Part shown: piece after piece, positions 34,801-64,000 of the stretch
Layout: every line of letters begins with the position of its first letter
How positions within the stretch are numbered: position 1 is the stretch's first letter
NCBI GenBank assembly: GCA_030602785.1
Contig: JAUVZB010000002.1
Location: 48,458 to 112,457 of the forward strand
Source of the DNA: Dehalococcoidia bacterium
Lineage (GTDB): Bacteria; Chloroflexota; Dehalococcoidia; GIF9; AB-539-J10
Length of the DNA: 64,000 bases
Direction: 5' to 3'
Notes under the pieces: model-generated
Seen by the model: only the letters and a program-made list of their open reading frames with translations
Told to the model about the DNA's origin: nothing
Databases searched by the model: none
Position numbers and translations under genes: made by a program

Positions 34801-35031
34801 CTAGATACCGCACGATGTGCAGTTACCGGTGCTACACGTTGAACAGCTGCTGCCACCGGCACCCGAGAAAGACAGGTCATCTGAGCCGGAGCAGAAGAAA
34901 GATGAGAACAACCGCGTGGGACCGACAACTCCACAATCAGGACACTTAAGGTCCGAGCCATCCTCTCCGATAGCCTGTCGAACCTCGAATCTCTTGCCAC
35001 ACCCGTCACACTCGTACTCATAGATCGGCAT
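34801..35031 (-). CDS. FmdB-family zinc ribbon protein
   Basis: A 76-residue protein beginning MPIYEYECDGCGKRFEVRQAIGEDGSDLKCPDCG, the FmdB (putative regulatory) zinc ribbon with two CxxC pairs. The tail is unusual: FSGAGGSSCSTCSTGNCTSCGI has four more cysteines, possibly a second metal site. FmdB was linked to amidase/formamidase regulation in another genus, but function is generally unknown. GGAGGTACTGT precedes the ATG. Confidence 0.88.
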   Translation of the reverse strand: MPIYEYECDGCGKRFEVRQAIGEDGSDLKCPDCGVVGPTRLFSSFFCSGSDDLSFSGAGGSSCSTCSTGNCTSCGI

Positions 35032-35294
35032 ACAGTACCTCCAGGGACTCGTGTAGAGCCTCACACTCTACGCTGCTACTGCGCCCGGCTGCCGGTCAGG
35101 CAGACCTGCCCACATAGCCGACGCAAGGCGCGCCCACAGTCCCATTTCTTATACCGCTGAATTGTAGCACTCCCGAAGCCGGATGCCTGCCGGGACCGCC
35201 ACGCCGAGTCATCATCGAGACAGAGGCCCACTTCCCCACTACCTGCCTGCCCCAAAGGCTTGATAGGCCGGGGCGACTGTGTTAGACATGTCAC

Positions 35295-35567
35295 ATGACT
35301 CGAATCGAGCTGAGCCCTACTGCCGAGCAGTGTATCGAGACAACCGCACGCCGGCGATTTCATCGTCTCACCGAGTCGATTCTCCGTGGGGAGAAGACAG
35401 ACGACGCGACACTGGACGAGATTGAACTCCTGCGGCGATTCCTCGAGACGGCTGACTTCGCGCGGCTGAGAGCAGAGAGCGAGAAGGAACTGCACAGCGG
35501 ACGAAGTGTCACATTCCAGGTATTCCGGACTCACGGTAAGGTCACACAGCGGATGCAGGTGACCTAG
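35295..35567 (+). CDS. hypothetical protein ending at an inserted element
   Basis: A 90-residue, mainly helical, charged protein (TAEQCIETTARRRFHRLTESILRGEKTDDATLDEIELLRRFLETADFARLRAESEKELHSG). No family recognised. Its stop codon TAG is part of the CTAG at which the 378-bp inverted-repeat element begins, so the coding region appears complete and untouched. No strong ribosome-binding site is visible. Confidence 0.6.
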   Translation: MTRIELSPTAEQCIETTARRRFHRLTESILRGEKTDDATLDEIELLRRFLETADFARLRAESEKELHSGRSVTFQVFRTHGKVTQRMQVT

Positions 35568-35945
35568 GAGCCTGTCGGAATAACCACACTCACGGTGAGG
35601 CTACACAGCGTAGGGCAGGGTTGGTGCGCCACTTCACGAAGGCCGGGAGTGCGCGAAGCGCGAAATGCAGGGGCACGTTGCACGTGCCCGGTGGACGCGA
35701 GGCGGTCCGAATGTAGGGGCAGGCCTCTGCGCCTGCCCGTGGTGGAGGCGATGGCTGCAGGTGGAAGTGTTGGCGCAACCAACCGTCGACGGTGTACAAA
35801 CCCGTGGCGGGCGGACACAGAGGTCCGCCCCTACACTAGGGGACTCGACCGTGAATGATGATAATGAGTGGCGTGTCAACAGCGCGACATGGCCAAGTTG
35901 CTCCCTTCGTACCAATACCAAGGGGGCTGTTTCTCCGACAGGCTC
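35568..35945. mobile_element. 378-bp MITE-like element with CTAG target duplication
   Basis: The ends are a perfect inverted repeat GAGCCTGTCGGA (35568-35579 and 35934-35945), flanked on both sides by CTAG (35564-35567, 35946-35949). No transposase gene fits inside. The interior has three hairpin-forming arms built on GGGGCACG...CGTGCCC, GGGGCAGGC...GCCTGCCC and GGGCGGAC...GTCCGCCC. The same end sequence recurs after polA at 63865. Confidence 0.78.
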
Positions 35946-36416
35946 CTAGGGTTCGAGGAGCACAACCGCGTAGGCCGCCATTCCCTCACCACGTCCGATG
36001 AAGCCAAGGCCGTCATTCGTCTTCGCTTTGACAGAGACACGCTCCGGGACAACTCCCATCGCTGCGCCGAGCGTCTCCCTCATCTGCCTGATGAAAGGCG
36101 AGAGCAGCGGGCCCTCCGCAATGACGACCACATCAACATTCGCAACGCTCAGCCCCATCTCCGCAATCATCCCGGCGACTGTCTCCAGCAAGTCGATACT
36201 GGAGACGTCCCGGAACCGCGCGTCGCCGCTGGGGAAATGCGTCCCGATATCCGCGAGACACGCCGCCCCGCAAATGGCATCCACAACAGCGTGAGTGACT
36301 AGATCAGCATCGCTCCACCCATCAAGACCCCGTGCGAAGGGCACATCAACACCACCGAGAATCAGTCTCCTGCCCTCCACAAGGCGATGGCTGTCGTAGC
36401 CTGCTCCGATTCTCAT
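35946..36416 (-). CDS. ispF: 2-C-methyl-D-erythritol 2,4-cyclodiphosphate synthase
   Basis: A 156-residue enzyme of the non-mevalonate isoprenoid pathway that cyclises CDP-ME 2-phosphate with release of CMP. MRIGAGYDSHRLVEGRRLILGGV carries the Asp-X-His zinc site; GWSDADLVTHAVVDAICGAACLADIGTHFP and KAKTNDGLGFIGRGEG complete the signature. ATG 36416 overlaps the ispD stop by four bases. Its own TAG stop lies in the CTAG flanking the inserted element. Confidence 0.95.
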   Translation of the reverse strand: MRIGAGYDSHRLVEGRRLILGGVDVPFARGLDGWSDADLVTHAVVDAICGAACLADIGTHFPSGDARFRDVSSIDLLETVAGMIAEMGLSVANVDVVVIAEGPLLSPFIRQMRETLGAAMGVVPERVSVKAKTNDGLGFIGRGEGMAAYAVVLLEP

Positions 36417-37093
36417 GTGGAATCCCCCCATCTCTCTGCGATTAACCTGGCCAGGAGCAGGTCCTCCGGAGTGGTCACTTTCAGGTTCTGATAGGAGCCG
36501 GGATACAGGCGAACGGTACAACCAAGCCTCTCCGCAAGCATGGCATCGTCAGTGACTGCGTCGCTCATGCCTGCGCAGGCGTCGCGAATGATGTCCGCGC
36601 GAAAGACCTGAGGTGTTTGAGCAGCGCGGAGCACGTCGCGTTCTAGCGTCCGCAGGACGTTGTTCGACTCATCCGCCACCTTCACCGTGTCCTTGACCGG
36701 TACCGCGGCGACAGCAACGCCGGTCTCCCGCGCCGAGCGGAGTCCCTCTTCCAGCAGCTCTTGCGTCAGGAAGGGACGGTCACCATCATGCACAATCACC
36801 CAGCCCACCTCTCCAATGGCTCGAAGCGCGTTCCCGACCGAGTCCTGCCGGCGGTCTCCGCCGAGACAGAACCTGGTCTTGGTCCATCCCCGCGTGCGGC
36901 ACAGTTCCTCACCAAGAGCGATTGTGTCGGGATTGAGGGCAACAACCACATCAGTGACCAGGTCGCAGCGCTCCAGCGTATCGATGCACCACGCCAGCAG
37001 TGATTTCCCGCCCAGGCAGAGAAACAGCTTGTCCTCACCACACATCCGCGTGCCACGCCCCGCGGCAGGGACAACCACACCAACCCGTTCCAT
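36413..37093 (-). CDS. ispD: 2-C-methyl-D-erythritol 4-phosphate cytidylyltransferase
   Basis: A 226-residue nucleotidyltransferase making CDP-methylerythritol from MEP and CTP. VGVVVPAAGRGTRMCGEDKLFLCLGGKSLLAW is the nucleotide-binding loop; VIVHDGDRPFL and VPVKDTVK are conserved. ATG 37093 is preferred to a TTG two codons upstream. It sits two bases after the radA stop and overlaps ispF, so radA-ispD-ispF form one unit. Confidence 0.94.
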   Translation of the reverse strand: MERVGVVVPAAGRGTRMCGEDKLFLCLGGKSLLAWCIDTLERCDLVTDVVVALNPDTIALGEELCRTRGWTKTRFCLGGDRRQDSVGNALRAIGEVGWVIVHDGDRPFLTQELLEEGLRSARETGVAVAAVPVKDTVKVADESNNVLRTLERDVLRAAQTPQVFRADIIRDACAGMSDAVTDDAMLAERLGCTVRLYPGSYQNLKVTTPEDLLLARLIAERWGDST

Positions 37094-42218: not shown

Positions 42219-42491
42219 ATGGCGTACAAGATCACAGATGACTGCATTAGCTGTGGCGCGTGCGAATCCGAGTGCAAGAACGAGGCCATCAGCGAGGGGG
42301 AAGCGGCGTACGTAATCGATGCCGATAAGTGCACCGAGTGCGTGGGCTGGTTCGAATCTGCTCGCTGCGCTGAGGTCTGCCCTGTCGGAGCGCCCGTGCA
42401 GGATCCAGACAACAGCGAGTCCAAGGAACAGCTCCTGGAGAAATTCAAGAAGCTGCATCCGGGCGAGACGCCGGTAGAGGGAACCTACTAG
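42219..42491 (+). CDS. 2x[4Fe-4S] ferredoxin
   Basis: A 90-residue ferredoxin. The first cluster motif is [11 protein letters not shown]; the second has an insertion, [22 protein letters not shown], as in YfhL/Alvin-type ferredoxins. A charged C-terminal tail follows. It is the third gene of the rsmD-coaD run. Its TAG stop and the TAG stop of the convergent proC gene share one CTAG. Confidence 0.94.
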
Positions 42492-61131: not shown

Positions 61132-63864
61132 ATGCAACCGCCCCTGCTTCTCCTGGTCGACGGCAACGCCCTGATTCACCGCGCGTTCCATGCGCTCCCT
61201 CCTCTCACAACATCGAAGACGGGGGAGATGGTGAACGCAGTGTACGGGTTCACGAACACTCTACTGAAGGTGGTTGCCGACCAGAAGGCAACGCACTGGG
61301 CCATCGCGTTCGACTATCCTGCGCCGACGTTCAGGCACAAGCTGTTTGACCAGTACAAGGCCCAGCGTCCACCCACACCCGAGGAACTCAGGAGTCAGAT
61401 ACGACGGGTCCATGAACTCGTCAGCGCGCTCGGTATGCCGGCTTTCGAAGTCGCCGGCTACGAGGCGGATGACATACTCGGGGCACTGGCGATACAGTCC
61501 CGCAACCTCAACATGGAGGCAGCCATCCTCACGGGAGACCGCGACCTGCTGCAGATGGCAGGTCCGGGCATCAGCATACTGCTGCCCGGAAGGAACTTCA
61601 GTGAAGCCGCCTCGTACGACGCTGCTGCGGTCGAGGCTAGATTCGGAGTGTCGCCGGAGCAGTTCGCAGCCTACAAGGCGCTCGTCGGCGACCCCTCCGA
61701 CAACATCCCGGGAGTACAGGGAGTGGGCGACAAGACAGCAGTACGCCTTCTCACGCAGTTCAAGAGCCTCGAGGGAGTCTACGAGCACCTCGCGGAGGTC
61801 ACCCCCCAGAGGCTGCAGGCAATCATGCTCTCTTCCGAAGCCCAAGCCTACTTGAGTCAGCGCCTGGCGACCATCATGACAGACGTCCCCGTGCAGCTCG
61901 CCCTTTCGGACTGCGCCATCGGAGAGTACAGCCCGGAGCAGGCGCGGAGCCTGTTCACGGAACTCGAGTTCACCCGCCTGCTGTCGCGCCTGCCGTCAGC
62001 CACCGGCGCAGACGCGCATCCGGAGGAACCCGCGCCCGCGCCAACGCAATCGAAAGTGCAAGTCGTGTCCGGTGCACAGGAAGAGCACGAGGTTCTTGAG
62101 AAGATTGCACACTCATCCGAGGCGGTCATATCCCTTGCGCTGGACGGCAATGAGCGGCGCCGCGCGCAGCGGGCACGCGCCGACGGCCCGACGGAGGCGA
62201 CAGCGCTCGGTGTCGCCGTGTCCGCAGGCAGGGGCCATACGTTCTATGTGCCGCTTGAACCGATGCCTTTCGGGCCGCTCGACCAGCTTGCCCTGGCACA
62301 ACCGCCCGAATTCCTCGCCTCCATGCTTGGAAACGAGAAGCTCCACAAGATATGCGAGGACGCCAAAGTCTTCACAAGGCAACTGTCGCGGTACGGTCTG
62401 ACACTCAGAGGACTTGCTTTCGATATCTCTATCGCGGCACACCTTGCCGGAGAGAAGAACGTCTCGCTCCAGTCTCTTGCCCTGACCCGGCTGGGGCTAT
62501 CGCTTCCAGACGCGCCGGATTCCGGGGGAGGGCTGGCCGCCGGAGACGACGACATCGCCCGATGGCTCGCTCAACGCTCCGACATATGCTGGGCGCTCAG
62601 AGAGCCCCTCGATGGCGAACTGGAGAAGAAAGGGCTTGGGCCACTGTTCCGAGACGTGGAACTGCCGCTCATCCCAGTCCTCGCGTCAATGGAAGAGAGC
62701 GGCATACTGATAGACACGGCCATGCTGCGAGAGATGTCTCGAAGACTGGCAGACGACCTCAAGAGACTGGAGGTCGGCATCTACAACGAAGTCGGGCACA
62801 TGTTCAATGTCAACTCTCCCAAGCAACTCGGGAATGTCCTTTTCGACGAACTCGGACTACCGGGCGGGCGCAAGACCAAGGGAAGCTACTCAACTGAGGC
62901 GGCTCTTCTGGAGACACTCAGAAATGCCAACCCCGTCATCGACCTCGTGCTGCAGTACAGGCAACTATCCAAATTGAAGTCGACCTACGTCGACACGCTG
63001 CCCGCACTGGTGAACCCGAGGACGGGCAGGGTGCACACAGTGTTCAGTCAGACAGGAACAACGACAGGGCGTCTGTCGTCGAGCGAGCCGAACCTTCAGA
63101 ATCTGCCTGTCAGGAGCGAGCTCGGCAAGACAATACGGGCGGCAGTCATTGCGCCGGCAGGAAGCATGCTTCTCAGTGCTGACTACTCGCAGATTGACCT
63201 GCGTGCGCTCGCACACCTGTCGCAGGATAAGGAACTCCTCGCCGCCTTCGCGAACGACGAGGACATACACAGGACCACGGCGAGCAAGGTCTTCGGCGTT
63301 CCACCTCACGAGGTGACGGCCGAGATGCGCAGGGCCGCCAAGGTCGTCAACTTCGGCGTCGTGTACGGCATGAGTGACTACGGCCTTGAGCAGGCAACGG
63401 GGTTCACCCGGGCCGAGGCGTCCCATTTCATCACAGCCTACTTCGAGCAGTACCCGGGCGTCCGCCGGTGGATTGAGAGAACCAAGGAGAGCGCGCGAGA
63501 AGACGGGTATGTCCAGACTCTGCTTGGCAGGAGACGCTACATCCTGGAGATACGCTCAACGAACCGACAGGTTCGAGAGGCGGCTGAGCGGATGGCTGTC
63601 AACGCCCCTGTTCAGGGCACTTCGGCAGACATCATCAAGGTTGCCATGATCAGGATTCATGAGGCGATGCGAACAGACGGGCTGCGCAGCAGGATGCTGC
63701 TGCAGATTCACGACGAACTACTGTTCGAGGTCCTGCAAGACGAGCAGGCGCGAGTCAGGCAAGTCGTGGAAAGGCTCATGCCCCGCGCAGTGGCCCTGTC
63801 GGTGCCGCTCAAGGTAGACCTCAAGGCCGGCCCGAACTGGGCCGACATGACGCCCGTTACCTAG
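61132..63864 (+). CDS. polA: DNA polymerase I
   Basis: A 910-residue repair and replication polymerase. The 5'-nuclease domain (about 1-290) has LLVDGNALIHRAFHALP, YEADDILGALA, GDRDLLQ and GDPSDNIPGVQGVGDKTA. The middle 3'-5' exonuclease domain lacks the catalytic acids (LALDGNERR where DxE is expected, KICEDAKVF where N-D is expected), so proofreading is probably absent. Polymerase motifs A (DYSQIDLRALAHLS), B (RRAAKVVNFGVVYGM) and C (IHDELLFEV) are intact. The TAG stop lies in a CTAG where an inverted-repeat element begins. Confidence 0.96.
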   Translation: MQPPLLLLVDGNALIHRAFHALPPLTTSKTGEMVNAVYGFTNTLLKVVADQKATHWAIAFDYPAPTFRHKLFDQYKAQRPPTPEELRSQIRRVHELVSALGMPAFEVAGYEADDILGALAIQSRNLNMEAAILTGDRDLLQMAGPGISILLPGRNFSEAASYDAAAVEARFGVSPEQFAAYKALVGDPSDNIPGVQGVGDKTAVRLLTQFKSLEGVYEHLAEVTPQRLQAIMLSSEAQAYLSQRLATIMTDVPVQLALSDCAIGEYSPEQARSLFTELEFTRLLSRLPSATGADAHPEEPAPAPTQSKVQVVSGAQEEHEVLEKIAHSSEAVISLALDGNERRRAQRARADGPTEATALGVAVSAGRGHTFYVPLEPMPFGPLDQLALAQPPEFLASMLGNEKLHKICEDAKVFTRQLSRYGLTLRGLAFDISIAAHLAGEKNVSLQSLALTRLGLSLPDAPDSGGGLAAGDDDIARWLAQRSDICWALREPLDGELEKKGLGPLFRDVELPLIPVLASMEESGILIDTAMLREMSRRLADDLKRLEVGIYNEVGHMFNVNSPKQLGNVLFDELGLPGGRKTKGSYSTEAALLETLRNANPVIDLVLQYRQLSKLKSTYVDTLPALVNPRTGRVHTVFSQTGTTTGRLSSSEPNLQNLPVRSELGKTIRAAVIAPAGSMLLSADYSQIDLRALAHLSQDKELLAAFANDEDIHRTTASKVFGVPPHEVTAEMRRAAKVVNFGVVYGMSDYGLEQATGFTRAEASHFITAYFEQYPGVRRWIERTKESAREDGYVQTLLGRRRYILEIRSTNRQVREAAERMAVNAPVQGTSADIIKVAMIRIHEAMRTDGLRSRMLLQIHDELLFEVLQDEQARVRQVVERLMPRAVALSVPLKVDLKAGPNWADMTPVT

Positions 63865-64000
63865 GAGCCTGTCGGAGAAACGACTCCGGCACTCATGTCA
63901 CAGCATAGGGATGTGGTGGTTCTCGGGTTTCCTAATGGGCGCGAGTTCACATGGAGAGCCTCGGCATGCACAGCCGTGGCCGGATTGCTCCTCCAAGGGC
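63865..64000. mobile_element. second copy of the CTAG-inserting element (left end only)
   Basis: Directly after the polA stop the sequence reads GAGCCTGTCGGAGAAAC, matching the ends of the 35568-35945 element (17 of 17 with the right end read inward: GAGCCTGTCGGAGAAAC). The window ends before its other terminus, so size and content are unknown. Confidence 0.65.

Follow-up and report, generated by a model that had tools for sequence, protein, structure and literature searches.

A CTAG-flanked, IS1182-related MITE at the shared stop site of two convergent genes in a Dehalococcoidia genome

The 64,000-nucleotide stretch of a Dehalococcoidia genome analysed here (the window) contains a 378-bp element, at positions 35568-35945, that sits between two copies of the tetramer CTAG (35564-35567 and 35946-35949). 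It is a MITE, small and non-autonomous, and is related to an IS1182-family element that the genome carries at another location. It is short, ends in terminal inverted repeats, is flanked by a CTAG duplication, has an empty counterpart in related genomes and is one of many dispersed copies. It is very probable that the ends of the MITE are recognised by the IS1182-family DDE transposase encoded in the same genome and that the CTAG target, its duplication and selection together shape the sites at which such elements are found. The system offers a clean case, complete with empty sites, of how insertion into a short palindromic target can be almost neutral, even where the stop codons of two genes overlap.

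The element and its empty site

The element begins with GAGCCTGTCGGA and ends with TCCGACAGGCTC. Its terminal inverted repeats have 22-bp arms that are 91% complementary; the left arm spans 35563-35584, with its element side at 35568-35584 (plus strand), and the right arm spans 35929-35950, with its element side at 35929-35945 (minus strand). The left CTAG supplies the TAG stop (35565-35567) of a conserved 90-aa gene without an assigned function, here called the 35295 gene (35295-35567, plus strand), whose product has no match in Pfam or NCBIfam. The right CTAG supplies the TAG stop (35948-35946, minus strand) of ispF (35946-36413, minus strand), which matches TIGR00151 (177 bits) and PF02542. 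Since CTAG was copied on insertion, both genes retain their stops. The original prediction had described an inverted-repeat element of this size at a CTAG common to two stops, and its coordinates, flanks and both stop assignments proved exact.

It had also been predicted that an unoccupied site would have one CTAG for the two convergent stops, and such a site is present in two genomes of the same genus. In the closest relative compared, whose ispF is 92% identical, the site reads ...GTGACCTAGGGTTCGAG..., and the two convergent stops overlap there in one CTAG. The arrangement is the same, again with one CTAG for both stops, in a more distant member of the genus (ispF 68% identical). In both genomes the homologue of the 35295 gene terminates at this same CTAG, and by this conservation of its end position the gene looks real. 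The shared-stop state, being common to the two relatives, is most simply taken as ancestral, and the window element would then be a later insertion. A pair of genes that still shows the uninterrupted arrangement is found in the window itself, where the TAG stops of a ferredoxin gene (Fer4 match) and proC (P5CR_dimer match) overlap in the CTAG at 42488-42491, as had been noted from the start. CTAG is otherwise scarce in the window, with 31 occurrences against 141 expected from dinucleotide shuffles.

By alignment, the 378-bp element consists of a 164-bp version of the MITE plus an internal cassette, located at 35655-35875 (boundaries approximate), that the shorter version is missing. The cassette carries GTAGGGGC-type palindromes, and the window copy has one palindrome more than the 332-bp copies, about 46 bp long and located near 35661-35707. 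Palindromes of the GTAGGGGC type occur 30 times in 460 kb, both within the element (at 35713 and 35825) and elsewhere (loci L195, L205 and L207), and are possibly a separate repeat family.

An ORF search of the 378 bp found no credible ORF and no transposase gene, and an Rfam search of 35000-36600 gave no match. As RNA, the element folds far more strongly than shuffled sequences on both strands (z of -5.7 and -7.2), as it might if the inverted repeat were no mobile element but served the convergent genes as a terminator in both directions or as a regulatory hairpin between them. Inverted ends and internal palindromes will, however, make any element fold strongly, and the folding was not taken as a sign of RNA function. 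A scan for terminators and promoters found nothing above chance and no terminator-like site. More than 100 sites have the same ends and the CTAG duplication, and relatives show empty sites, all of which makes a fixed terminator or hairpin very improbable and argues for a mobile element.

The CTAG-flanked family and its transposase

The 12-bp end of the element, with up to one mismatch, has 165 matches in the genome, compared to 30 for the reversed control. When the end is extended to include CTAG (CTAGGAGCCTGTCGGA, at most one mismatch), 124 matches remain and the reversed-pattern control has none, which excludes chance. In all there are 107 distinct element sites, many of them at contig ends; 31 are complete copies, and the other 76 are single ends. 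The elements fall into size classes of 91 bp, 101 bp, 164-165 bp, about 307-378 bp and 1606 bp. The 91-bp class has 11 copies with no differences between them, which suggests that it moved recently.

Many contigs (for example C19, C20, C22, C23, C27 and C28) start or stop about 125-140 bases into these elements. This offers a reason for the break points of the assembly, and suggests that repeats common to many copies broke it and that full-length copies are under-counted.

Collecting the genomic copies bore out the idea that insertion targets CTAG and duplicates it: CTAG is present on both sides of 26 of the 31 complete copies and beside 70 of the 76 single ends. The exceptions have CTAA, CCAG, CTGG or CTCG at one or both sides. 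For four more insertions the closest relative has the corresponding site without an insert; the tetramer there is CTAG at three of these sites and CCAG at the fourth. One insertion is flanked by CTAA on either side over a site that reads CTAG in that relative, which means that the target either is not strictly required or has since changed. Two further sites seem to be filled in both genomes, and some insertions are thus older. Neighbouring elements of differing size classes also occur in runs of at least two with a single CTAG between them (at six loci), which indicates that an inserted copy provides a new target.

The source transposase, which the original prediction had proposed to look for, is encoded on contig C138. 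This contig carries a complete 1606-bp element with CTAG flanks and the same 12-bp ends as the MITE, and the element codes for a DDE transposase of 461 aa. The protein has DUF772 and DDE_Tnp_1_6 domain matches and scores 380 bits against the NCBIfam IS1182 model NF033551, well above the cut-off of 270. Because the two elements have the same 12-bp ends and both use CTAG as target, we infer that the window MITE was moved in trans by a transposase of this type. At locus L079 of C138 (1654-4539), the full-length element splits a gene that encodes a SIR2-like domain (PF13289) and whose frame is fused to that of the transposase.

IS5-type elements use YTAR targets, of which CTAG is one, and the C138 transposase also gives weak matches to IS5 models. 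This raises the question of whether IS5 is the true family of the element, the more so as MITEPsy1, a different type of MITE, is already known to duplicate CTAG (PMC3189936). However, the best IS5 score is 75 bits against a cut-off of 140, and the ends of the window MITE match those of the IS1182 element and differ from those of MITEPsy1. Membership of IS5 is accordingly extremely unlikely.

Support for IS1182 as a user of CTAG extends beyond this genome. About 30 IS1182 relatives from many phyla, roughly 40-70% identical, mostly have CTAG on both sides, with ends of the GAGYCTGTCGGA, GAGTCTGCGCGGCAGA or CAGCCTGTCGGACTT type. These flanks show that this IS1182 subgroup as a rule targets CTAG, which does not hold for the IS1182 family in general. 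The combination of CTAG and GAGYCTGTCGGA provides a simple signature for finding the subgroup and its MITEs.

Related mobile elements

IS1182-derived MITEs with 4-bp duplications are already known from MITEPye1 of Paracoccus yeei (PMC11578231), and the window element adds another. By its published description, MITEPye1 is likewise short, intergenic and devoid of an ORF, with 4-bp direct repeats and a long stem-loop fold, and its inverted ends of about 18 bp are similar to IS1182-family ends. It is present in 1-3 copies per chromosome, and the passages that deal with MITEPye1 give neither a CTAG target nor a link to stop codons.

The window element has its ends and the 4-bp duplication in common with IS1182-family insertion sequences (NF033551), of which its autonomous partner is a member, but unlike them it has no transposase. 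Among described members of the family, ISPse1 has 16-bp ends and a 4-bp duplication (PMC3281130), ISPsy36 targets GGCC (PMC8027508) and IS1272 replaces a palindrome (PMC5678879). MITEPsy1, from Pseudomonas syringae pv. phaseolicola, is a 100-nt MITE that duplicates CTAG or YTAA (PMC3189936); its terminal repeats (GGAAGGTCTGAAAAAGCC) are unrelated to those of the window element, and it is thought to be derived from ISPsy2. No direct precedent was found in the open-access literature for IS1182 elements with a CTAG target in a stop-codon or shared-stop niche.

Insertion sites and stop codons

In the mechanism proposed here, the MITE would retain the ends that the IS1182-family DDE transposase of the full-length copies recognises. 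The transposase would cut the CTAG palindrome with a 4-nt stagger, a step to which the observed target and duplication point, and gap filling would then leave CTAG at either side of the insert. CTAG is depleted in coding DNA, yet common as a C followed by the TAG of a stop codon. An insertion at a stop, even at a CTAG common to two convergent genes, leaves both proteins unaltered, because a copy of CTAG stays on each side. Selection would purge insertions within genes and, to a lesser extent, those upstream of genes, so that copies would build up between genes and at their ends.

The positions of the insertions were compared to those of CTAG at large in 460 kb of sampled stretches of the genome, in which CTAG ends 63 of 406 called genes. 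Insertion and background flanks were classified alike, using a home-made gene caller with a codon model trained on 460 kb of the genome. With flank length matched between the two sets, an exact stop is found at 29 of 110 flanks of insertions (26%), compared to 57 of 583 (10%) for all CTAG, a 2.6-fold difference (p = 1e-5), and the difference persists when coding CTAG is removed from the background (57/319, p = 0.009); flanks that belong to a single insertion are not independent observations in such counts. Coding flanks make up 16 of 110 (14-15%) for insertions and 264 of 583 for the background (p = 3e-10), a contrast that is overstated in size since the background counts both flanks of each coding site. 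Insertions are found on the 3' side and 5' side of genes in a ratio of 66:28, and background CTAG in a ratio of 153:152 (p = 8e-4).

The suggestion that insertions fall harmlessly at gene ends is thus correct in part. About a quarter of the flanks lie exactly at stops and about 15% are coding, but the majority of insertions simply lie between genes. CTAG specificity, together with selection against harmful insertions, accounts for the pattern, and no recognition of stop codons is needed.

A stronger claim would be an active preference, on the part of the transposase or of some host factor, for stop codons or transcription-termination regions that goes beyond CTAG specificity. In a separate comparison, exact-stop flanks do exceed the non-coding CTAG background (30/98 vs 61/344, or 18%; p = 0.007), but the excess is modest, less than 2-fold, and can arise if insertions that hit promoters and regulatory DNA are selected against. 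Shared-stop sites are over-represented as well. Among 20 non-nested complete insertions classified two-sided, a small sample, three are at shared stops (the window site, L021 and L037), against 2 of 315 in the background (p = 0.0017, or 0.017 without the window site). Shared stops are, however, the only class that stands out in the two-sided set, where insertions at any stop (6/17) are no commoner than in non-coding CTAG (60/175). Nor is there a significant stop excess among IS1182 relatives of other phyla by a crude open-frame criterion (10/81 vs 40/503, p = 0.2). An active preference for stops is therefore improbable, and CTAG targeting combined with selection is the preferred explanation.

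More tentatively, CTAG might act as a safe harbour. CTAG-targeting IS1182 elements and their MITEs would exploit a tetramer that is depleted in coding DNA and enriched at stops, with the duplication restoring both stops even of convergent, overlapping genes, and the target preference itself would have been favoured for limiting damage to the host. This last idea is rather doubtful.

A second insertion is located at the right edge of the window (63861-64000). It starts at 63861 with a CTAG that includes the TAG stop of DNA polymerase I, and directly after this comes the 3' end of a full-length IS1182-type element that is cut off by the end of the contig. In the closest relative no element is present at this place; DNA polymerase I stops there at ATAG, and the end of a convergent gene lies 15 bp further on.
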